Assembly: GCA_021733795.1 (NCBI GenBank)
Contig: JAIPKB010000001.1
Span: forward strand, 22,052-86,051
Source: Akkermansiaceae bacterium
GTDB taxonomy: Bacteria > Verrucomicrobiota > Verrucomicrobiia > Verrucomicrobiales > Akkermansiaceae
Length of the DNA: 64,000 nucleotides
Direction: 5' to 3'
Shown: piece by piece, positions 17,321-34,510 of the stretch
Position numbering within the stretch: position 1 is the stretch's first letter
How the letters are laid out: each line of letters begins with the position of its first letter
The notes under the pieces: model-generated
Databases searched by the model: none
Seen by the model: the letters and a program-made list of their open reading frames with translations, nothing else
Told to the model about the DNA's origin: nothing
Made by a program: the position numbers and the translations under genes

Positions 17321-18350
17321 ATGGCGGTCAAATCGAGCGTTGTCAAAACGAAAGGGCCCGCAAAGCTTCCGGCACGCATGAATGTGTCAAACCCAACCGC
17401 ACCTGTTCACCCGCTGGAAGAATTGCCACCGGCGAAAATCACCGCCGCCTTGCTAGGGGCGACGCTGGTAGGTGCGTTGGGTGGGCTATTGTTCGGGTTC
17501 GACACTGCGGTCATCTCCGGTTGCCAGGACCAGTTGAAGCTCTTGTTCCAACTCACCGCCAACGAGCAGGGATTCATGACCGCTTCGGCGCTGATCGGAG
17601 CCGCCATCGGTTCGCTGGCGGCGGCCAAGCCGGGTGACCTCTATGGCCGCCGCGATTGCCTGAAAATCGCTGCCGCGTTCTCTTTGCTCTGTGCCATCGG
17701 CTGCGCCGCTGCGGCGGGGCTCTGGATGATGATTGCTGCGCGAATTCTCGGCGGCATCGCGGTGGGTGCCACCTCGGCGCTGGGGCCGATGTATCTTGCG
17801 GAAATGGCCCCTGCCGCCTGGCGCGGCCGGTTGGTGGCGTGCTTCCAGGTCAACATCGTGTTGGGCGTGTTGGTGGCGAATTTTTCCAACGATCTGATCG
17901 GCTCGATGGACCTTGGCGCGGCCGAGTGGCGGTGGATGTTGGGGATCCTAGGCACTGCCTGCGCTGGCGTTTCTGGCGCTCTTGTTCTTCACCCCCCGCA
18001 GCCCGCGCTGGCTGGTGATGAAGGGGGAACACCAGCAGGCCGGGGAGGTGTTGCGCAAGATCGGGCTGAGCCAAGCCGAGGAACACCTCGCGGCCATCCG
18101 CAACTCGGTGCACCTGGAAATTGGCCAGACCTCGGCTCCGCTATTTGTCAGATCCCTCTCCAAACCGATTTCCCTCGCGGTGGCGGTCGCCATGTTCAAC
18201 CAACTCGGCGGGATCAACGCGCTCTGGTACTATGCGAACACCATTTTCGCGATGGCGGGGTTCAGCAAGGATTCCAGCGCGTTGCAGTCGGTCATGCTCG
18301 GGGTGGCCAACCTCATTGCAACCCTGGTGGGCATGGAAAGGAACATTTTC
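17321..18350 (+). pseudogene. MFS sugar transporter (sugar-porter family), frameshifted and truncated
   Basis: The 5' frame encodes helices 1-6 of a sugar/H+ symporter: 'LFGFDTAVISG', 'GDLYGRRDCLK', 'ARILGGIAVGATSALGPMYLAEMAP', 'RGRLVACFQVNIVLG'. Near 17955 the reading frame shifts by one base: the continuation 'ALLFFTPRSPRWLVMKG ... FNQLGGINALWYYANTIF' lies in the +1 frame (track ORF 17982-18416). Homology then stops at 'GVANLIATLVGM' near 18336, so the last four to five helices are missing and the GH172 remnant follows. It would have imported the sugar released by the GH32 enzymes. The frameshift alone could be a sequencing error; the truncation could not. Confidence 0.75.
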
Positions 18351-18399
18351 AGCAGCCGGATGTGCTGGAATTGCTGCTGCCGTTCGTGCCGGGCTTGGA

Positions 18400-18626
18400 A
18401 TACGGCGCTGAGTTGATTCTTGAAATCCCAGCGGAACAGATGGTGATCGAATCGGATCTCCAAGGTCGAGATCCAGAACCAACATGACAATGTCAATCCC
18501 ACGACTCCCGCTGAGGCGGATGACTATATCAGTCTTGCGTTCTGGTATCAGGAGGGGCCGGTGCAAGTCGTTGCATTGCCAACCTTCAAACAGCGCACGG
18601 CACCCGCCTTTTCCACCGACAAATAA
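18400..18626 (+). pseudogene. C-terminal remnant of a second GH172/DUF2961 gene
   Basis: The frame ending at the TAA 18624-18626 reads 'KVEIQNQHDNVNPTTPAEAD', 'DYISLAFWYQEGPVQ', 'VVALPTF', typical of the end of the DUF2961 catalytic domain. Just upstream 'VIESDL' fits the same protein but in another frame, implying a one-base insertion near 18463. Everything 5' of that is absent, apparently lost together with the end of the transporter gene. It is not included in the ORF track because it has no start. The stop lies 15 bases before the next GH32. Confidence 0.6.
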
Positions 18627-18641
18627 GCACCCATCACCACG

Positions 18642-20483
18642 ATGATCAAAACATCCATCTTTCTGGGATTACTAACGGCCTTGCCAATTTGCCCCGCCGG
18701 TGAAACCGCGGTCGGACGCATCGGCGTGGCGGACTATGGCAATTGGAAGGCCACCGGGACCGCGTTTCAAAAGGGCCCTGCCTCCGGCGATTTGCTCGCC
18801 AAACTGGAGATCGAGAACTCCGCCGCCGCCGCCGTCATCAGCAGCGAAATCGACGGCGACAGCCCGGTGGGCACCCTGACCTCCCCCTCTTTCAGCCTCT
18901 CGCGTCCCTATCTTTCATTCCGCATCGCTGGTGGCGACTACGAACGCCACGCCTGCATCAACCTGGTCATCCATGACAGGATTGTGAAAAGCGCCACCGG
19001 CCGCAACAGCGACCGCCTGACGCCCGTCTCATGGGACGTGAGAGAGTTCATGGGCACGACCGCGACCATTCAGATTATTGATGAAGCCGGCGGACAGTGG
19101 GGACACGTCAACGTCGAGGGGATCGTCCAGACAGATGCGCCCGAGGTCATGCCGTTGGCGAAAGGGATACTCTATCAGGAGGCACTGCGGCCGCAGTTCC
19201 ATTTCACCGCCCGCCAGTGGACGATGGACCGGCTGAACCCGGGCATGCGGCAGGAGGGGTGGCTCAACGACCTCAACGGGCTGATCTATTACGACGGGGA
19301 ATACCACCTTTTCGCGCAGCGCTGGAACAAGTGCTGGATCCATGCCGTGAGCCGGGATCTGATCCATTGGCAGGAACTGGAGCCCGCGTTCTGGGAGGAG
19401 AAGCTCGACAGTGCCGTGCAATCCGGCACCTGTGTGATCGACTATCATAACACCTCCGGCCTCTCGCCGGACAACAAGACCCCGCCGATGGTCGCGTTCT
19501 GGTCCCGCAACGAACCCAGCCACTGCCTTTCCTACAGCCTCGACCACGGGCGCACTTGGCAGCATTACCCCAAGAACCCGGTGTTGATATTCCCGGAACG
19601 GGACCCGAAGGTGTTCTGGTATGAGCCGGGAAAACATTGGGTCATGATGATGTACGGCAGCGGCAAATACCATCTCTTCACCTCGCCAAACCTGCTGGAC
19701 TGGACCAACGTGAACCACCCGATCAACGACGCCTTCGAGTGTCCTGACTTTTTCGAACTGCCCGTGGTCGGGAATCCAGCCGTCCGGAAATGGGTGCTGA
19801 TTCATGCGGATGGCAAATACTCCCTCGGCACCTTCGACGGCACCGAGTTCAAGGAGCAAACCCCCCGCTATCCAAGCGACCTCGGCGGCAATAACTTCTA
19901 CGCGACCCAGGCTTTCAACAACACCGACAAGGCCGATGGCCGTCGGATCCAACTCGCCTGGATGCGCGGGTCCGATTTCAAAGACATGCCGTTCAGCCAG
20001 CAGGTATCGTTTCCGTGCGAACTGACGCTTCACCAAACCCCGGCCGGACTCCGGTTGTTCCGCCAGCCGATCCGCGAACTCGAAATGCTCCATCAGACGG
20101 AGAAGCAGTTGAACCACCGCGAGCTGGATGACGGTGAGGAATTGTCACTCGCGCCAGCAGGCGAGTTGTTCCGCATCCAGGCGGAAGTGAGCATCCCGGA
20201 AGGAGCACGGCTGAGCTTCAACCTGCGTGGCTATCCGGTGGTCCTCACGTCCAACACCGCCGAATCGGGCACCGGAGCCCACACCGTTCAGGAGGCGGTC
20301 AGAACGGTGGAAATCCTGATCGACCGCGCCTCGGTGGAAGTCTTCGTCAACCACGGCGAATTATCGATCACCCGCAATTTCCGGGCGCGTCAGGATGGGT
20401 TGTCGGTGACCGCAGAGGGTAGCGGGGTCCTTATCCGGTCCATGGCCATTCATCCACTCATGTCGATCTGGCCGACCCATTGA
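18642..20483 (+). CDS. Secreted GH32 family enzyme with atypical nucleophile motif
   Basis: 613 residues with a signal peptide (MIKTSIFLGLLTALPICPAG). One N-terminal beta module ('VADYGNWKATGTAFQKGPASG') matches that of the other GH32. The propeller keeps 'GWLNDLNGLIYYDGEYH', 'ERDPKVFWY' and 'FECPDFFELP', so the three acidic residues are present, but the usual Pro of the NDPNG motif is Leu and the first blade has a long insert. The C-terminal beta-sandwich contains 'VEILIDRASVEVFVNHGE'. It should act on fructosides, perhaps with altered specificity. It follows the GH172 remnant by 15 bases, suggesting a former regulator-transporter-GH172-GH32 transcript. Confidence 0.9.
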   Translation: MIKTSIFLGLLTALPICPAGETAVGRIGVADYGNWKATGTAFQKGPASGDLLAKLEIENSAAAAVISSEIDGDSPVGTLTSPSFSLSRPYLSFRIAGGDYERHACINLVIHDRIVKSATGRNSDRLTPVSWDVREFMGTTATIQIIDEAGGQWGHVNVEGIVQTDAPEVMPLAKGILYQEALRPQFHFTARQWTMDRLNPGMRQEGWLNDLNGLIYYDGEYHLFAQRWNKCWIHAVSRDLIHWQELEPAFWEEKLDSAVQSGTCVIDYHNTSGLSPDNKTPPMVAFWSRNEPSHCLSYSLDHGRTWQHYPKNPVLIFPERDPKVFWYEPGKHWVMMMYGSGKYHLFTSPNLLDWTNVNHPINDAFECPDFFELPVVGNPAVRKWVLIHADGKYSLGTFDGTEFKEQTPRYPSDLGGNNFYATQAFNNTDKADGRRIQLAWMRGSDFKDMPFSQQVSFPCELTLHQTPAGLRLFRQPIRELEMLHQTEKQLNHRELDDGEELSLAPAGELFRIQAEVSIPEGARLSFNLRGYPVVLTSNTAESGTGAHTVQEAVRTVEILIDRASVEVFVNHGELSITRNFRARQDGLSVTAEGSGVLIRSMAIHPLMSIWPTH

Positions 20484-21466: not shown

Positions 21467-22225
21467 TTACCGGACCTTGCCGGTGGCCGCCCACTCGGTC
21501 CCGCGCTGGATGAGTTTCGTGACGTTGGGGGTCCGGATTGCGTTGCCGTCGTGGCCGAAGGTTTCGTGAAACACCCGGCCTTGCCCGTATTCCAGGGTGA
21601 AGGCGAGCGGTTCGGTTGCATTGCTCCAGTCCGAGGCCGCGGTCACCAGTACGTGGATCGATGCGTCGCCCTGCAACTTGGCATAAAGTTCGTCGTCGGT
21701 CTGGAAGTCTTCCAGCCCTTGGGTGATCGGGTGGTTCCGGTCGGCGATTTGGGCTTTGAAGACGCTGCGCGGGCCGTGGCCGGACTGGCCCATGACCCAG
21801 TAGCGGCCGCAAAGTTTCTGGAATTCACCCCACTCCTTGAACGACGCACTCGATAGATGGGAGATGCAGAGGCCCTTGCCGCCCTTCACATAGGCCAACA
21901 GGTTCTGTTTGGCCGCCTCAGAGAGCGTAGCGAGCTTGGCGTTGTAGAAGTGAAGGAACACCGCATCGTAGGCCTTGAGCGAACTGGCGGATTCGAAAAT
22001 GCCCGGATCCTCGCTAACGTTCACCTCAAACCGGTTCGTTGCCAGCAAGGCCTCGCGGATCGCCTGGGAGACCTCGTGCCACGGGTGGGCGGCGACGTCG
22101 TCGCCGGTGACGATCAGCACCTTGAGCTTGGGCGAGGCATCGGCCGCAGGGCACGGTGCGATGGAAATGAGGGAGCAGCCAATCAGGGCGGCGAATGACG
22201 CGCGCAGGGTGTTTCGACGGTTCAT
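21467..22225 (-). CDS. Secreted ThuA-domain protein (trehalose-utilisation-type, glutamine-amidotransferase fold)
   Basis: 252 residues from ATG 22225; the track start lies 72 codons too far upstream and translates a GGGAT repeat. The signal peptide (MNRRNTLRASFAALIGCSLI...APCPAAD) is followed by the ThuA core: 'KVLIVTGDDVAAHPWHE', 'YDAVFLHFY', 'YVKGGKGLCISHLSSASF', 'ADRNHPITQGL', 'GQGRVFHETFGHDGNA'. ThuA proteins are linked to sugar metabolism, including 3-keto-glucoside pathways with DUF1080 partners; a DUF1080 gene occurs at 40 kb. It is convergent with the SGNH gene. Confidence 0.85.
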   Translation of the reverse strand: MNRRNTLRASFAALIGCSLISIAPCPAADASPKLKVLIVTGDDVAAHPWHEVSQAIREALLATNRFEVNVSEDPGIFESASSLKAYDAVFLHFYNAKLATLSEAAKQNLLAYVKGGKGLCISHLSSASFKEWGEFQKLCGRYWVMGQSGHGPRSVFKAQIADRNHPITQGLEDFQTDDELYAKLQGDASIHVLVTAASDWSNATEPLAFTLEYGQGRVFHETFGHDGNAIRTPNVTKLIQRGTEWAATGKVR

Positions 22226-22259
22226 GGGATGGGATGGGATGGGATGGTTGGGGGTTGGG
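22223..22259. repeat. GGGAT pentanucleotide tandem repeat at the ThuA gene start
   Basis: The sequence reads 'catgggatgggatgggat' and continues for four near-perfect GGGAT units, then decays into 'ggttggggg' variants. On the minus strand this is the leader of the ThuA gene and begins at its start codon, so copy-number change would alter leader length and possibly the ribosome-binding region. Confidence 0.7.
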
Positions 22260-22353
22260 ATGGTTGGAGGTGGCTGTGCGGTGGGTTGACTAGGTGCTTG
22301 GACGAAACTGCGCCAGCTGCCGGGAAAACCGCACGATGACACAGCCGGCAAGA

Positions 22354-22620
22354 CTACGTCTCGAACCAGCGTTGATCTTTCATCATTGATGCCAGGGGCA
22401 TCAACGTGCCGCGCGCAGCCGGGGCGAGATTTCCGCGGCACTCGAGCGGAATAGCCAGCAGCGGCTTGGGGGTCTTACTCCTGGCTTTATGCTCGCTCGG
22501 GAGTTCGGTGCGGGCCATCCGGTGATTTCCGAGATTGGCGGTGATGATCGGATAGTTGCTACCAAACAACAGGTAACTCGACGGTTCTCGCGCGGGGGCG
22601 TCGTCGCCAGTGGTGAGGAT
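22354..22620 (-). other. Unassigned minus-strand ORF segment
   Basis: A roughly 90-codon open stretch within track ORF 22354-22689, including 'REPSSYLLFGSNYPI' and 'HRMARTELPSEHKARS'. It does not read like a typical antisense shadow, but I cannot name a family. It sits between the ThuA gene and the truncated secreted-protein gene, where other gene fragments occur, so a further remnant is possible. It may be non-coding. Confidence 0.25.
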
Positions 22621-23984: not shown

Positions 23985-25934
23985 ATGCCAATCTCCATCC
24001 GCCATCGCAGCCCGGCGCTCCTCGTGAGTGCGGTGGCGATCCTGTTGTGGACAGTCATGTCCACACCGCTCCAGGCCGATGAGTCACAGGGGTATCTCAA
24101 CCGCTTCTGGCAAACCAGCGATGGCATGCCGAGCAACTCGGTCAACGACATCGGCAAGGACCGGGATGGCTTTCTCTGGATTGCCACCGGCGCGGGGGTG
24201 GCGCGCTTCGACGGGCTGCGATTCGAGGTCTTCTACACCCGCGACGGCCTGCCGGACACGCAGCTCCGGTGTCTCCACGTGGACCGCAGAAACCGCGTCT
24301 GGGTCGGCACGCGGCGCGGCGTCGCCTACCGCGAAAACGGAGCCTGGGTGATCCCCTCCGGGTTTCCGAACGAACCGGTGTTTTCCCTCGGGGAAGGGAC
24401 CGACGGCTCGATCTGGGTGGGCACCTTCATCGGGTGCTGGAAGTGGGACGACGGCGGGTTCACCAAGATCAACCTGGGCGACATCACCCCGGACGTGCGC
24501 TCGTTTCTCGGCGAGGGTGGGAGTGGCATGTGGATTCTGACGCGGGACAACCTCTGCCTTTGGCATCCGGAAACGCCCGGCACGGTGGAGCCGGTCCCCG
24601 GGCCTTGGGAAAACAAGGACCTGCGTGACCTCGCACGCGATCATGCCGGACGCGTCATCGTGTGCGGGACCGGAGTCCTGCTGCGCCGCGAGGGTGATCA
24701 TTGGGAAGACCTCAACCCCATGATCCCAAACGGCGACCAAAACGCGAACCTCGCCTGCGCAGTCGCTGCCGATGACACGATCTGGCTGGCAACCCGGAAC
24801 CACGGACTGACTTTCCTCCATGACGCGGCAACCGGCGTCATCGATTCCACCGGGGACCTCTCGCTCAATGACGTCCGCAGCGTCATGACCGACGCCAACG
24901 GGATGATCATGGCAGGCACCAATGGCGGCGGCATCAACATCCTCCGCCGCCGCCCGTTCGACACCTACTCAACGAACGAAGGGCTCGGCGGCACCGTGAC
25001 CTCAGCGCTCGCCATCGACCGCCAGGGCGAAATCCTTGCTGGCACCGACGGCGGCGGCATCTTCCGCAAGGAGAATGGCAGGTTCCGGCCCTGCTATCGG
25101 AACTCGGGACTCCCCGGAGACGGGCTGATTTGGTCCCTGTGCGTCGGCGTGGACGACAGCATCTGGGTGGGTACCTATCAGGACGGACTGTTCCGCATCC
25201 GGGGCGACCAGGTGGAGAAGATCACCCCAGCCACCGGATTTTCGGGTAACCCGATTCCCGCGCTTGGTGGGACGCGTGACGGAGGGGTGCTGGTCGGAAC
25301 CAGTTCCGAGGGCGTGCGGAAGTGGAAGGGCGGCCAACTTGATCCCGACTTGAGTGGGCCTCCCGGGGAAGGGTTCGTGGTTTATGACGTGCTGGAGGAT
25401 CATCTCGGCCGGATCTGGGTCGCCACCGGCGAGCAGGGCCTCTGGGTGTTTGAAAATGGCGGGTGGCGGGAAACGACGCGGTCGGTTGGAATGCCCGAAC
25501 TCCTTCCCGCAGTCATCCACGAAGGCGGCGATGGAGACCTGTGGGTCGGCTCGCTCGGCCAGGGATTGGCCCGCTACCATGAGAACCAGTGGACCGCATG
25601 GGATGTCCGGGACGGCATGGTCAGCGATACCATTTGCCAGATTCTGGAGGATGATTCCGGCAACCTCTGGCTCGGATCCGACCGGGGGCTGCAGCGGGTT
25701 TCCATCGCGGTTCTAGGCGCATATCACCGGGACGAAAGCGGGTTGCCCATGGAAAGCATGCTTTTCGGACGGACGGACGGACGGATTGCCCACCCCGCAG
25801 TTCAGCGCGGAACACGGCAACCTGGCGGTCCGCGGCGACGATGGTTGCCTCTGGTTTTCGCTGGCCTCGGGTGCGATCCGGGTGGATCCAACAAGGTTTC
25901 CCAAATCCACCCACCTGCCATTCGTCCGAATTGA
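23985..25934 (+). CDS. Two-component hybrid sensor, N-terminal propeller part (frame interrupted)
   Basis: A signal/anchor (LLVSAVAILLWTVMSTPLQA) is followed by a two-component-regulator propeller of about 14 short repeats ('FWQTSDGMPSNSVNDIGKDRDGFLWIATGAGVARFDG', 'RVWVGTRRG', 'NLWLGSDRGLQRVS'). After residue 600 the translation turns into unrelated Arg/Pro-rich residues and stops at 25934, because a (GGAC)n tract shifts the frame. The natural continuation is the next entry. In relatives (BT-type hybrid sensors) the propeller senses a glycan fragment in the periplasm. In the sequenced state only a kinase-less sensor would be made. It may be phase variable or an assembly error. Confidence 0.8.
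   Translation: MPISIRHRSPALLVSAVAILLWTVMSTPLQADESQGYLNRFWQTSDGMPSNSVNDIGKDRDGFLWIATGAGVARFDGLRFEVFYTRDGLPDTQLRCLHVDRRNRVWVGTRRGVAYRENGAWVIPSGFPNEPVFSLGEGTDGSIWVGTFIGCWKWDDGGFTKINLGDITPDVRSFLGEGGSGMWILTRDNLCLWHPETPGTVEPVPGPWENKDLRDLARDHAGRVIVCGTGVLLRREGDHWEDLNPMIPNGDQNANLACAVAADDTIWLATRNHGLTFLHDAATGVIDSTGDLSLNDVRSVMTDANGMIMAGTNGGGINILRRRPFDTYSTNEGLGGTVTSALAIDRQGEILAGTDGGGIFRKENGRFRPCYRNSGLPGDGLIWSLCVGVDDSIWVGTYQDGLFRIRGDQVEKITPATGFSGNPIPALGGTRDGGVLVGTSSEGVRKWKGGQLDPDLSGPPGEGFVVYDVLEDHLGRIWVATGEQGLWVFENGGWRETTRSVGMPELLPAVIHEGGDGDLWVGSLGQGLARYHENQWTAWDVRDGMVSDTICQILEDDSGNLWLGSDRGLQRVSIAVLGAYHRDESGLPMESMLFGRTDGRIAHPAVQRGTRQPGGPRRRWLPLVFAGLGCDPGGSNKVSQIHPPAIRPN
25767..25785 (+). repeat. (GGAC)4.75 tetranucleotide tract that breaks the sensor kinase frame
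   Basis: After 'ttc' the sequence is four GGAC units plus GGA, then 'ttgcccacc'. With four units the frame reads FGRTDGRIAHP and runs to a premature stop. With three units it reads FGRTDGLPTPQF, the expected 'DGLP' motif of reg_prop/Y_Y_Y sensor proteins, and joins the two ORFs into one protein of about 996 residues. The tract is the exact point where the frames switch. Confidence 0.9.
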
Positions 25935-26979
25935 AAGCGCCACCGCAGACGACGGCCCCATCTGGAACTTCGAAGGGCCGGAAACACGCAACGAGATTGT
26001 CCTGCCCCCAGGTGGCGGCACGCTGCGAATCCGCTACACGTCGCCCCAATTCATCGCGCCCGAGCGGGGCCGGTTCCGCTACCGGATGACCGGAGTCGAA
26101 AGGGAATGGCAGGAGGTCGAAGGCGCCCGGGTCGCCAGCTACGCCTCCCTGCGTCCGGGAACCTATCAGTTCGAGGTCTTCGGAGCCACCTCCGACGGAA
26201 CCTGGAATCCGACGCCCGCCCGGATCCGCGTGGTGGTGGAGCCATTCATCTGGCAGACGTTGACCTTCCAATTGAGTGCCACCCTGATCATGCTGGCGGC
26301 CTTGGGCTGGGTGATTCGCACCGGATCCCTCCGCCGGATCCGTCGCCGGATGGAACTCGTCATGCAGGAACACCGGATCGAAAAAGAACGCACCCGCATC
26401 GCCCGCGATCTCCACGACGACCTCGGCGCAAGTCTCACGGAAATCAATTTCCTCGGCACCCTCACCGCCGGCGCGGTTTCCGACAACGCGGTCCGCCAGC
26501 GGATCGAGGGCATGGTGGACCGCGCCCAGCGCATGACCAAATCGCTCGATGAGATCGTCTGGACCGTCAACCCGGCAAATGACTCGCTCTCGTCCACCGC
26601 AAATTACCTCAGCTCCAGGACCCAGGAAAGTCTCGTCGCCGCCGGCATCCGGTGTCGCATGGAGGTGGACGACCCACTCCCGCATACTCCGGTGGATTCG
26701 GACCTCCGCCACCATCTGCTGATGGCGGTCAATGAGGCGGTCAACAATGTGATGAAGCATTCCAAAGCCACCGAATGCACCCTTTCGATCCGATTCAATG
26801 ACCGGATCCTGCTCGTCTCCATCGCGGACAACGGGACCGGCTTCGCCCCCGTCACCTCGCCTGACAGCCGCAACGGCCTTGTGAATCTGCAAAGCCGCAT
26901 GAAAGCTTCGGGCGGCAGCGTCGATATCTCCAGCACCCCACACGGCACCACGGTCACCCTGCGCACGCCATTGCCATGA
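25786..26979 (+). CDS. Two-component hybrid sensor, C-terminal Y_Y_Y + histidine kinase part
   Basis: 397 residues as an ORF, but its 'start' is a TTG inside the natural protein (DGLPTPQFS). It has the last propeller blade ('CLWFSLASGAIRVDP'), then a Y_Y_Y domain ('YTSPQFIAPERGRFRYRMTG...WQEV'), one membrane helix ('LTFQLSATLIMLAALGWVI') and a HisKA_3 dimerisation helix with the phospho-acceptor His ('RIARDLHDDLGASLTEI'). The HATPase domain follows ('HLLMAVNEAVNNVMKHSKA', 'VSIADNGTGF', 'NGLVNLQSRM'). It should phosphorylate the NarL-type regulator encoded 79 bases downstream. Without the upstream part it has no signal peptide. Confidence 0.82.
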   Translation: MPTPQFSAEHGNLAVRGDDGCLWFSLASGAIRVDPTRFPKSTHLPFVRIESATADDGPIWNFEGPETRNEIVLPPGGGTLRIRYTSPQFIAPERGRFRYRMTGVEREWQEVEGARVASYASLRPGTYQFEVFGATSDGTWNPTPARIRVVVEPFIWQTLTFQLSATLIMLAALGWVIRTGSLRRIRRRMELVMQEHRIEKERTRIARDLHDDLGASLTEINFLGTLTAGAVSDNAVRQRIEGMVDRAQRMTKSLDEIVWTVNPANDSLSSTANYLSSRTQESLVAAGIRCRMEVDDPLPHTPVDSDLRHHLLMAVNEAVNNVMKHSKATECTLSIRFNDRILLVSIADNGTGFAPVTSPDSRNGLVNLQSRMKASGGSVDISSTPHGTTVTLRTPLP

Positions 26980-27058: not shown

Positions 27059-27700
27059 ATGCCGTCATCAATAGTCATCGTGGAGGACAACAACGTGGTC
27101 CGCGAATGTTTGGAGGAAATCGTAAATGCCATTCCCGGATGCGATTGTCTGGCGGCATTCGCCTGTGCGGAAGATGCGATCCGGTTGGCACCACGACTCA
27201 CGCCCGATCTGGTGATGATGGATATCCAGCTCCCCAACCTCTCGGGGATCGAATGCGCCGCCAAACTCAAGGAGATGCTCCCGGAGGTGCTGATCCTGAT
27301 GCTCACTGTTTACGAGGACGAGGAGCGCATCTTTGAGGCGTTTAAAGCTGGTGCCAGCGGCTACATCCTCAAGCGGGCAAGCCCCCGCGAGGTGATCCAG
27401 GCGATCAAGGACATGCTTGAAGGAGGCGTTCCGATGACCCCCACCATTGCCCGGAAAGTGGTGGCGTCCTTCCGCCAGGCTCCTGCCGCAAGCGAGCAGG
27501 GCCCCTCCCTCACCCGCCGGGAAACCGAGGTCCTGCAAAGCCTTTCCAAGGGCTTGAGCAACAAGGAAATCGCCGACCTGCTGAGCGTCACCCTCGAAAC
27601 GGTGCGCTGGCACCTCAAACAAATCTACGAAAAACTGCATGTCCACGGGCGCACCCAGGCCGCCCTCAAGTTCATGAACATGCAGAACTCCAAACGCTGA
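27059..27700 (+). CDS. NarL/FixJ-family response regulator
   Basis: 213 residues. The receiver domain (1-125) has the acidic pocket 'IVEDN', the phospho-acceptor Asp in 'LVMMDIQLPNLSG', and Lys in 'YILKRASPREV'. The LuxR-type helix-turn-helix follows ('LTRRETEVLQSLSKGLSNKEIADLLSVTLETVRWHLKQIYEKLHV'). It is the cognate partner of the split HisKA_3 sensor just upstream and probably activates the GH16 gene 20 bases downstream and its coupled neighbour. It is intact, so it may be starved of phosphate if the kinase is off. Confidence 0.92.
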   Translation: MPSSIVIVEDNNVVRECLEEIVNAIPGCDCLAAFACAEDAIRLAPRLTPDLVMMDIQLPNLSGIECAAKLKEMLPEVLILMLTVYEDEERIFEAFKAGASGYILKRASPREVIQAIKDMLEGGVPMTPTIARKVVASFRQAPAASEQGPSLTRRETEVLQSLSKGLSNKEIADLLSVTLETVRWHLKQIYEKLHVHGRTQAALKFMNMQNSKR

Positions 27701-27720: not shown

Positions 27721-28590
27721 ATGAACCCCACCTTTTCCCTAACTTGCTGGCTGGCTGCCATGACCGCGGCTTCGTGTTTCGCCCAAGCCCCACCCCACGC
27801 GGTCCCCGCCAAGGATGATCGACAACCACCACGCGATCCTTCGTGGAAGCTGGTCTGGGCTGAGGAATTCAGCAAGGACGGGACTCCGGATGGAGCTCGT
27901 TGGGATTTCGAACAGGGCTTCCAACGCAACTCCGAACTCCAGTGGTATCGCCCCGAAAACGCCGTGTGCAGGAACGGGGTGCTGGTGATTGAAGCCCGCA
28001 GGGAAAAGCTCCCCAACCCGGGATTCCGGCAGGATTCCAGAGACTGGAAGCGCTCCCGCAAGTTCGCGGAATACACCTCCGCCTCGCTCATCACCAAACC
28101 CGCACTTGCCTGGACCTACGGACGCTTCGAAATCCGGGCCCGCTTTCCAGCCGAGCCCGGCCTGTGGCCAGCCATCTGGACCACCGGCCACGGGCGCTGG
28201 CCCGAGGGTGGGGAGATCGACATCATGGAGTTCTACCGCGGCCAGATTCTCGCCAATTTTGTCCAGGCTAACAAATCCGGTCGCGACGAGTGGAACTCGT
28301 CCCATCACGACATCGAGAAATTCGGCAAGGACGACTGGGCCGGGAAGTTCCACCTGTGGGTGATGGAATGGGATCAGGATAAGATCACGATCCATCTCGA
28401 CGGCCAACTGCTCAACACCCATGACCTCACCCGTTCCTTCAATGGCAACAACCCGCAGGTGAATCCCTTCCGCGCCCCCCACCGCCTCCGCCTCAACCTG
28501 GCGATCGGCGCGAATGGCGGAGATCCCTCGCACACCGTCTTTCCCAAACGCTACGAAATCGATTACGTCCGGATCTACCAAAAACCATGA
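27721..28590 (+). CDS. Secreted GH16 beta-glucanase (laminarinase-type)
   Basis: 289 residues with a signal peptide (MNPTFSLTCWLAAMTAASCFAQA). The GH16 fold is clear: 'LVWAEEFSKDGTPDGARWDFEQG', 'ELQWYRPENAVCRNGVLVIEAR', 'YGRFEIRARFP', and the catalytic 'EGGEIDIMEF' (ExDxxE: nucleophile and acid/base). It hydrolyses beta-1,3(-1,4)-glucans or related galactans outside the cell; the residues seen fit laminarinase-type members best. It starts 20 bases after the response regulator and its TGA overlaps the ATG of the next gene, so the three are likely one transcription unit. Confidence 0.9.
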   Translation: MNPTFSLTCWLAAMTAASCFAQAPPHAVPAKDDRQPPRDPSWKLVWAEEFSKDGTPDGARWDFEQGFQRNSELQWYRPENAVCRNGVLVIEARREKLPNPGFRQDSRDWKRSRKFAEYTSASLITKPALAWTYGRFEIRARFPAEPGLWPAIWTTGHGRWPEGGEIDIMEFYRGQILANFVQANKSGRDEWNSSHHDIEKFGKDDWAGKFHLWVMEWDQDKITIHLDGQLLNTHDLTRSFNGNNPQVNPFRAPHRLRLNLAIGANGGDPSHTVFPKRYEIDYVRIYQKP

Positions 28591-30878: not shown

Positions 30879-32210
30879 CTAGCAATTGTAGCAACCCAAC
30901 AGCCATTGCCAGACCGGCACGATTTCGATCCCCTGCGGGGTGCGGCTGCCGTGCGGCGCTTCGGTCTCGGTCACCAGCAAGGCCGCCGCATCCGGAAATT
31001 CCCGGCCCGCTTCGGTTAGGGACCGGACTTCCCGCTCGAAGGTCGCCGGAGACGAAATGTCCGCGGCGACCTGGATCAATTGGCGGCGACCCTCGAAATC
31101 CGTGGCGAGGAAGTCCACCTCAAATCCCGCCGCGGTCTTGGCATAGGCCAGATCGCGGCTGACTCGTGACAGTTCGCAGGCGACGAGGTTCTCGATGAGG
31201 CGGCCCCGGTCAAGGCCGGTGACCGGGCTGAATGCCTGGGCCAGGCCGTGGTCGGCCAGATAGAGTTTGCGCGGGTTCACTTGCCGCCGCCGCTCCGACC
31301 GATCGGCCAAGGGCACCGTGAAAACGAGGAAGGCGTCCTCCAGATGGGCCAGGAAAGCCAGCAGGGATTCCTTGGAGACCGCGATGCCCCGCGAGCCGAA
31401 ATCCGCATGGGTTTTACTCACACTCAGCAGGGTTGCCGGATTGCGCAGGAGCTGGCGGACGAACGCACGCAGGGCTGGCAGGTTCGAAACCTGGTGCCGC
31501 TCGGCCACATCGCGAAACAGCACCGTGTCGACGTAGCCTTGCAGCAGCCCGACCCGGTCGCGTGCGTCCGCATAAGCCCCCGCCTCGGGAAAGCCTCCCA
31601 CCTCGAGGAAGGCGTCAAAATGAGCCCGCAAGGCCGAGCGCTCCGCACCCGAAGGCAACTGCTGCGGCACACCCTCGGGCCATTTCCGGCCGCGAAGGAA
31701 TTCACGGAAACTGAACGGCGTGATGACCGTCTCCATCGCCCTCCCGCGCATGCTGGTGGCCACTTCCCGGCTCAACATGCGGGCGGAAGACCCGCTCAGG
31801 AAAATCTCGACCTTCTCGCTGTCCAGCACTCTTCGAACAAAGCGTTCCCAGCCGGGAACGAGCTGGATTTCGTCCAGGCACCAGGTCACCTCGGCTTGGT
31901 GACGGAAGTGTGGGAATTGACGGTAATACTCCTCAATCAATGTGCCAAGTTCTTCAGCCCGTAACCCGCCGAGCCGCTCGTCCTCGAAGTTGAAATAGAC
32001 CAGCCGTTCACGTTCGATTCCGCGCGCCAACCGGTCGGCGAGGCATTGCAGGAGGAAATACGTCTTGCCTGCCCGCCTCATTCCGATGACCGCCTGAGCC
32101 TTGCCCCGCAGTGGGGTCGGCGCGGCGTCGCGACGCACCATCTCCGGAAAGGGCGTCTTGATGGCATCGCCCAGTTTTTGCCGGATCGTTTGCAACAATT
32201 GGTTGTCCAT
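30879..32210 (-). CDS. AAA ATPase with C-terminal DUF4143 domain
   Basis: 443 residues from ATG 32210; the track start adds 38 upstream codons. The Walker A is 'GMRRAGKTYF', Walker B 'WCLDEIQLV', sensor 'IFLSGSSARML'. The second half ('LRAHFDAFLEVGGFPEA', 'RKLYLADHGLAQAFSP', 'ENLVACELSR', 'GFEVDFLATDF') is the DUF4143 domain, which has a PD-(D/E)XK-like fold ending in 'DFL'. These proteins are common accessory genes of unknown function, often variable between strains. It is divergent from the next gene, with a shared 126-base upstream region. Confidence 0.85.
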   Translation of the reverse strand: MDNQLLQTIRQKLGDAIKTPFPEMVRRDAAPTPLRGKAQAVIGMRRAGKTYFLLQCLADRLARGIERERLVYFNFEDERLGGLRAEELGTLIEEYYRQFPHFRHQAEVTWCLDEIQLVPGWERFVRRVLDSEKVEIFLSGSSARMLSREVATSMRGRAMETVITPFSFREFLRGRKWPEGVPQQLPSGAERSALRAHFDAFLEVGGFPEAGAYADARDRVGLLQGYVDTVLFRDVAERHQVSNLPALRAFVRQLLRNPATLLSVSKTHADFGSRGIAVSKESLLAFLAHLEDAFLVFTVPLADRSERRRQVNPRKLYLADHGLAQAFSPVTGLDRGRLIENLVACELSRVSRDLAYAKTAAGFEVDFLATDFEGRRQLIQVAADISSPATFEREVRSLTEAGREFPDAAALLVTETEAPHGSRTPQGIEIVPVWQWLLGCYNC

Positions 32211-32336
32211 GCGGACTGCAATCGCACAAAACCGGTCTTCGCGCAAGACCGAATTCCTCTGTCGGGGCGAATTCTTATTGTCGAGTCGGGCTGAAACGCT
32301 ACGTTGGGCTGCAGCCAACTCCACTTTCGCATTCTT

Positions 32337-33292: not shown

Positions 33293-34504
33293 TCAGCCTA
33301 ACTGGCTAAGCAACGGCGTGAAGTCATTCCATGGGAGAACGGTGGCCTTTGCGCGGTCCTGGCGGGCGATGCCGCCGTGAATGAGCCAGGGGGTAATGGT
33401 CTGGCGGGAGAGCTTGGCACGCCAGTAATCGAGACCGGTGAAGAAGTCGGAGGCGATGGTTTCACCGGACTTGATTTCAACGGCTTGGAAGGTGTCCGGC
33501 GCGGTCTCAATCAGGGCGTCGATCTCGTGCCCCTCCTTGTCGCGGAGAAAATGGAGGGATGGCTTGAGGCCGAGGTTGGTCTGGGCCTTCAGCAGCTCGG
33601 TCATGACCCAGTTTTCAAACAAGGCTCCGCGTTGCGGGTGGGCGCTGAGGTGGGCGGCGGCACGCACGCCGAGGAGCCAGGCGGCGAGGCCGGGGTCGCA
33701 GAAGTAGAGCTTGGGGGTCTTGATCAGGCGTTTGTTGAGATTGCTGAACCAGGGGCGCACGAGGAACACCAGGTGGCTGGCCTGGAGGACGGACAGCCAG
33801 GACTCGGCCGTGACGCGGGTGATGCCGGTGTCCGCTGCGAGTGAGGTGATGTTGAGAAGCTGCCCGACGCGACCGGCACAAAGCTGGACGAAACGCTGGA
33901 AGGTGGCGAGGTCCTGAATGTTGAGGATCTGCCGCACATCCCGCTCCAGATAGGTGCTGATGTAGTCCTGGAGCCAGAGGGTGGGTTCGACCGGGCGGTC
34001 GTGGATCGGCGGAAAGAGGCCGGCGTGGAGGAGTGCGTCCACGGTGGCAGGGGCGCGTCCGACGGCTTGGAGCTCCGCCAGGGAGAATGGCAGCAGGGTG
34101 AGCATGGAGGACCGGCCGGCGAGGCTCTGAGTGATCGACTCGATGAGTTCGAACTGGCTGGAGCCGGTGAGAATGAAGCGCCCCATCCGGCGGTCGGAAT
34201 CGACAACGCCCTGGAGGTAGGAAAAAAGTTCCGGAGCACGTTGGATCTCATCGAGGATGGCCCCATCGGATGCTTGGCGGAGGAAGGCCCGGGGATCCTC
34301 GGTGGCGAGAGCGCGGGTGTCGGGATCTTCCAGGGAGAAATACGGAAGGTCCGGGGCGAGCAGGCGTGAAAGCGTGGTTTTGCCGGATTGGCGGGGTCCG
34401 GTGATGGTCAGAATCGGGAATCCGGCAAGCCGCTTGCGGGCCGCAACTGCGGCATTCCGGGGAATCGGCTGGTTGGGAAACGATCGGCTCGAAGCACTGG
34501 ACAT
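33293..34504 (-). CDS. AAA ATPase with C-terminal DUF4143 domain (second copy)
   Basis: 403 residues from ATG 34504; the track begins at a TTG two codons earlier. Walker A is 'GPRQSGKTTLSRLL', Walker B 'GAILDEIQRAPEL', followed by 'RFILTGSSQFEL'. The C-terminal DUF4143 domain contains 'ISTYLERDVRQILNIQDL', 'PKLYFCDPGLAAWLLG', 'FENWVMTELLK', 'LHFLRDKEGHEIDALIE' and 'AVEIKSGETI', which carry the PD-(D/E)XK-like Asp and ExK. It is of a different subfamily from the copy at 30.9 kb, so this is not a recent duplication. Function in this family is unknown. Confidence 0.87.
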   Translation of the reverse strand: MSSASSRSFPNQPIPRNAAVAARKRLAGFPILTITGPRQSGKTTLSRLLAPDLPYFSLEDPDTRALATEDPRAFLRQASDGAILDEIQRAPELFSYLQGVVDSDRRMGRFILTGSSQFELIESITQSLAGRSSMLTLLPFSLAELQAVGRAPATVDALLHAGLFPPIHDRPVEPTLWLQDYISTYLERDVRQILNIQDLATFQRFVQLCAGRVGQLLNITSLAADTGITRVTAESWLSVLQASHLVFLVRPWFSNLNKRLIKTPKLYFCDPGLAAWLLGVRAAAHLSAHPQRGALFENWVMTELLKAQTNLGLKPSLHFLRDKEGHEIDALIETAPDTFQAVEIKSGETIASDFFTGLDYWRAKLSRQTITPWLIHGGIARQDRAKATVLPWNDFTPLLSQLG

Positions 34505-34510
34505 GACCAA

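Follow-up and report, generated by a model that had tools for sequence, protein, structure and literature searches.

In an Akkermansiaceae genome, the gene for a propeller-type sensor kinase is divided into two overlapping open reading frames (ORFs) exactly where it carries a perfect tetranucleotide tract. With a probability of roughly 0.65, the break is a recent strand-slippage frameshift in a lineage-specific repeat, which would have left an OFF or null allele, a scar able to revert, and not an evolved contingency locus. The judgement between switch and scar is made from one assembled allele, which lies in the 64,000-nucleotide stretch of DNA analysed here (the window).

Domain architecture of the sensor system and its neighbourhood

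As the original prediction had it, the two ORFs encode the propeller and kinase halves of a sensor, Pfam placing Reg_prop repeats in the first and Y_Y_Y, HisKA_3 and HATPase_c domains in the second (Table 1). The last ~49 residues of the N-terminal product are out of frame; the C-terminal product contains one apparent membrane helix and H-, N- and G-box motifs that look intact by eye. Together with the intact regulator gene that follows, which is 78–81% identical to its counterparts in the three closest orthologous loci, these elements supply every domain of a Reg_prop/Y_Y_Y sensor kinase with an adjacent NarL-type partner.

Among PDB entries, the propeller half matches the Bacteroides sensors 3v9f and 4a2l; for the second half, 4a2l is matched again, together with DesK. 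The order of a Reg_prop propeller followed by Y_Y_Y is that of the Bacteroides hybrid two-component sensors; unlike these, the window gene has neither a receiver nor an HTH in its chain, and its HisKA_3 kinase, which is DesK-like, is paired with a NarL-type regulator on a gene of its own. The receiver and output domains that an HTCS carries on its kinase chain are thus not found there, Pfam detecting only the three domains named above in the C-terminal half. Since the chain contains no receiver domain and the Response_reg-GerE protein is encoded separately, the system is of the NarL type, with its propeller sensor and its regulator on two genes, and the earlier designation of the kinase as "hybrid" was wrong.

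The closest orthologous loci keep the sensor/regulator pair without the GH32, GH16 and transporter genes that surround it here; the corresponding neighbours there include a GH2 beta-galactosidase (G019), a beta-helix protein (G019 and G174) and BipA (G186). Because the glycan-related neighbours are not conserved, the description of the sensor as "glycan-sensing" stays inferential. About 6 kb upstream of the sensor, a pseudogene of a sugar porter is a sign of gene decay, although it is part of another gene group and has no direct bearing on the sensor. The remnant is cut off near 18330, and the stretch that follows it, to about 18625, ends in residues that, by eye, resemble the C-terminus of a different protein (DYISLAFWYQEG...), which suggests that a deletion fused two gene remnants. 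Just past the sensor region, two AAA_14/DUF4143 ATPases lie close together on the minus strand (30879–32324 and 33293–34510).

Table 1. Features of the window and, in the last row, repeat arrays elsewhere in the same genome
Feature	Position	Strand	Evidence and remarks
Sugar-porter (MFS) pseudogene	17321..18487	+	frame change near 17960-17970; 3' truncation
GH32 glycoside hydrolase	18642..20483	+	Pfam; not conserved in orthologous loci
N-terminal ORF (649 aa): Reg_prop propeller repeats, preceded by a putative signal peptide (by eye)	23985..25934	+	PF07494, E 6e-32; PDB 3v9f, 4a2l
(CGGA)5 perfect tetranucleotide tract at frame junction	25766..25785	+	5 units, out of frame
C-terminal ORF (397 aa from TTG): Y_Y_Y, HisKA_3, HATPase_c	25786..26979	+	Pfam; DesK, 4a2l
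Intact NarL/LuxR-type response regulator (Response_reg-GerE), partner of the sensor	27059..27700	+	Pfam; conserved pairing
GH16 glycoside hydrolase, adjoining the regulator	27721..28590	+	Pfam; not conserved in orthologous loci
Heptanucleotide arrays	L089:7275-7360, L098:11240-11334, L107:5379-5457, L092:500-571, L077:16377-16441

A frame break on a CGGA tract

The tract, an exact (CGGA)5 that can equally be written as GGAC x4.75 at 25767–25785, divides the sensor kinase gene (23985–26979) into two ORFs that overlap by 149 nt, the first of which enters the repeat in one frame and the second of which leaves it in another. The last stop before the frame of the C-terminal half is at 25714 and that frame is open from just after it, so that the tract can be read through in either frame. 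Upon removal of one CGGA unit, the two ORFs become a single 996-aa protein, as originally predicted (~996 residues), that reads SMLFGRTDGLPTPQF at the junction, a reading also given as FGRTDGLPTPQF for one unit fewer. When other unit numbers are simulated, full-length products are obtained only with 4 or 7 units (996 or 1000 aa); 5 and 8 units lead to a stop at 649 and 653 aa, and 3 and 6 units to a stop at 698 and 702 aa. The locus shares one feature with contingency loci, a coding repeat whose unit is not divisible by three sitting at a frame junction. The coordinates and arithmetic of the original prediction (tract, ORFs and unit numbers) were right, its three or six ON units being 4 or 7 CGGA units if whole GGAC units are counted.

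Relatives of the gene are unbroken and repeat-free at this site. Eight orthologs from other species of the same family, with one genome per species (G174, G186, G019, G028, G182, G138, G147 and G148), are each a single ORF, the best being 73% identical at the DNA level, with 57–77% amino-acid identity across the junction region. Their alignment places the frame junction exactly on the tract; the 4-unit form of the window gene aligns with all eight without gaps, whereas the 5-unit form does not, which upholds the view that the two ORFs are one gene parting at the tract. At the site, the orthologs read F/L-[SNG]-R-[EP]-D-G-L-P-T-P-Q-F in ordinary codons (for example TTC AGC CGT GAG GAC GGG CTG CCC), and a tandem repeat at the junction is absent from 8/8 of them.

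On a broader scale, a 204-residue probe identified, by count from the match table, more than 110 sensors spanning the junction in one frame in 254 same-family genomes, and none besides the window's own copy is split there. The break is accordingly confined to one lineage with intact orthologs elsewhere, as in a recent indel or null allele, and is not conserved in homologs, as it would be in a programmed frameshift; the possibility that all relatives share the split, named in advance as damaging to the prediction, is not what was found. A scan of genome contigs matched only distant kinases, mostly from Bacteroidota and at most 33% identical. A related propeller sensor (G038:C79:32705-35647, L008) contains one in-frame TGA.

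The uniform single-ORF state of the relatives also bears on a functional split, in which the kinase half would be started separately, from TTG 25786 or GTG 25882, or be reached by a ribosomal frame shift at the tract. Both frames are open through the long overlap and the kinase half is conserved, as such an arrangement would have it; but TTG and GTG are the only in-frame starts and neither has an obvious ribosome-binding site, ordinary stop-start coupling involves overlaps far shorter than this one, a kinase half made separately would have its Y_Y_Y domain but no signal peptide for it, and the site, which is not conserved, has no slippery heptamer. We consider a functional split very improbable.

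Both halves show purifying selection

Comparison of the C-terminal half with four intact genes (G174, G186, G019 and G028) yields dN/dS values (NG86) of 0.17–0.22, close to those among the four genes themselves (0.15–0.20 excluding G019–G028, and 0.13 for that near-identical pair). The N-terminal half gives comparable values, so that purifying selection is seen in both halves, with dN/dS at about 0.2; relaxed constraint downstream of the break is not observed, and neither an additional stop nor a second indel was found in the C-terminal half. Since both halves are still constrained, the break is recent or reversible. As far as sequence can tell, either it happened recently or cells still produce the full-length protein at times; the constraint excludes an old pseudogene, but a very young break would show it too, and so, to the same degree, would a gene that flips.

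The tract is an outlier in its genome

No exact tetranucleotide array in a 0.98-Mb (977 kb) sample of this genome (62% G+C) is longer than the tract, and no other one exceeds 16 nt. Arrays of at least 16 nt number 4 in these 977 kb against 0.0 in 5th-order Markov simulations, and GGACGGACGGACGGAC occurs once in the entire 6.07-Mb assembly. Under the codon usage of the genome, the probability of a perfect repeat given the peptide GRTDG is 7e-4, which suggests that the tract was made by slippage or duplication and not by codon choice. Seeds of the type GGACGGAC are found at 10.5 per 100 kb in propeller sensor ORFs versus 4.0 in the genome's ORFs, an enrichment of ~2.6x, from 5 occurrences, that perhaps reflects the Asp-Gly-rich propeller fold. 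The 19-nt GGAC-type pattern is present in 3/254 family genomes; in the two others no sensor context was found for it at L141, the one resolved among L140, L141 and L143.

An extra unit could also stem from an assembly or consensus error, or the assembler could have picked up a minor variant, with most cells carrying the gene in frame. The source is a fragmented draft (318 contigs, 86% complete), and a single homology-confirmed frameshifted gene is often a sequencing error (PMC3711429). Short reads, to judge from the contig sizes, nevertheless cover 20 bp easily and seldom gain 4-nt units, and the tract is perfect with unique sequence on both flanks; an artefact of this kind seems improbable.

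Recent slippage or evolved switch

The recent frameshift that we favour may be pictured as follows. Going by its protein families, the gene would encode a membrane sensor kinase in which a periplasmic propeller (Reg_prop, Y_Y_Y) precedes a HisKA_3 kinase, and which works with the adjacent NarL-type regulator. A short CGGA tract would have arisen in this lineage at the conserved F-x-R-x-D-G-L-P segment, and the five assembled units put the gene out of frame by one unit (+4 nt); translation is then predicted to stop 49 codons later and to release a propeller fragment lacking membrane anchor and kinase, so that the regulator would be left without its kinase and function presumably lost. A downstream half that has kept both its frame and its constraint implies that the break is young or only intermittent. 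Loss of one unit or gain of two restores the protein, and reversion is thus possible in principle; a high switching rate, or selection for one, is unsupported, hence our preference for a null allele over an evolved switch. The four-unit ON allele is itself hypothetical, and the five-unit tract could have come from a non-repeat ancestor in one complex event. Against a null allele speaks that the tract stands out strongly within its genome and, with five units, falls exactly at the published cut-off for tetranucleotides.

That cut-off, five or more units, applies to phase-variable tetranucleotide loci (PMC5953494), and phase variation would operate here by slipped-strand mispairing: tracts of 4 or 7 units would leave the gene ON and those of 5, 6 or 8 would yield the truncated OFF form, giving a mixed population in which the downstream regulon is on or off. 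The position of the tract exactly on the frame junction, the ON states at 4 and 7 units, the excess over Markov expectation, the constraint on both halves and the length at the cut-off all agree with it. On the other side, none of the orthologs (0/8) has the tract, which is private to one genome and known from a single assembled allele; the presumed ON form, with four units, would fall under the cut-off; the 0.98-Mb sample holds no further exact tetranucleotide array above 16 nt; the GGAC-type pattern is rare in the family and, in the other two genomes, showed no sensor context where read; and a decayed transporter gene lies nearby. Evolved phase variation is thus unlikely, and so is the specific idea that an environmental bacterium flips a periplasmic propeller sensor, and hence a NarL-type regulon, by tetranucleotide slippage. 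Of the "switch (or scar)" first proposed, the scar fits better; the switch is weakened by the repeat-free orthologs, the four-unit ON form, the lack of any other split sensor in the family and the broken gene nearby.

A review of phase variation requires reversible, high-frequency switching before selection for a locus to be called phase variable (PMC11868660). By other published criteria, which favour the scar, a lone frameshifted gene points to an indel mutation or sequencing error, phase variation being called for clusters of at least 5 (PMC3711429). The window gene resembles such singleton indel pseudogenes in having a homology-confirmed break in one genome only, but differs from them in that its break falls on a tandem repeat and is thus potentially reversible. 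With the tetranucleotide contingency loci of Haemophilus influenzae, Neisseria and Moraxella it shares a coding tract in which unit changes shift the frame (PMC2651432, PMC5953494); those loci are strain-polymorphic and often longer, whereas the present tract has five units in one genome.

A precedent for slippage switching of a sensor kinase is BvgS of Bordetella pertussis, in which a C6/C7 homopolymer produces a frameshift and six versus seven C is decisive (PMC1891110, citing Stibitz et al. 1989). There, as in the window gene, a short coding tract turns the kinase off when it is longer by one unit, full-length and truncated forms following from repeat number; since BvgS switches on only six C, short tracts can matter. 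BvgS has a mononucleotide tract in a true hybrid kinase, with both alleles observed in mixed cultures, as opposed to a tetranucleotide in a non-hybrid gene seen as one allele. The Verrucomicrobia phase-variation literature includes a phase-variable Akkermansia capsule, and our search found no paper that describes a phase-variable propeller or HTCS sensor. The statement that none had been described for a propeller-type sensor therefore stands uncontradicted by that search, but a slippage frameshift in a sensor kinase is known from BvgS.

Were the switching true, it would extend repeat-based phase variation, mostly known from host-associated pathogens and commensals, to an environmental bacterium and its nutrient-type sensor, and the variation would lie in a regulator and not in a surface antigen. 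If the break amounts to no more than a recent null allele, the mutation is an ordinary one, yet even then it would indicate that the DG-rich codons of propellers (GAC GGN) can seed slipping GGAC tracts.

Other repeats in the genome

No clear second case of a repeat-split gene emerged from 163 scanned arrays and Pfam searches on ten candidate pairs in this genome. At L086:17940-17947, a C8 run lies between the frame of a GH38 C-terminal domain and an overlapping fn3-domain frame; this weak candidate is possibly a second repeat-split gene, or simply two neighbours. Heptanucleotide arrays of 9 to 14 units (Table 1) occur far above Markov expectation, mostly outside long ORFs, and 7-nt tandem repeats seem to be abundant in this genome. 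Finally, the longest pentanucleotide array of the sampled genome, (ATGGG)4.8, is found in the window at 22224–22247; on the minus strand its CCCAT repeats run into the likely ATG of a ThuA-domain gene (21467–22441), so that unit changes could alter the start region of that gene.
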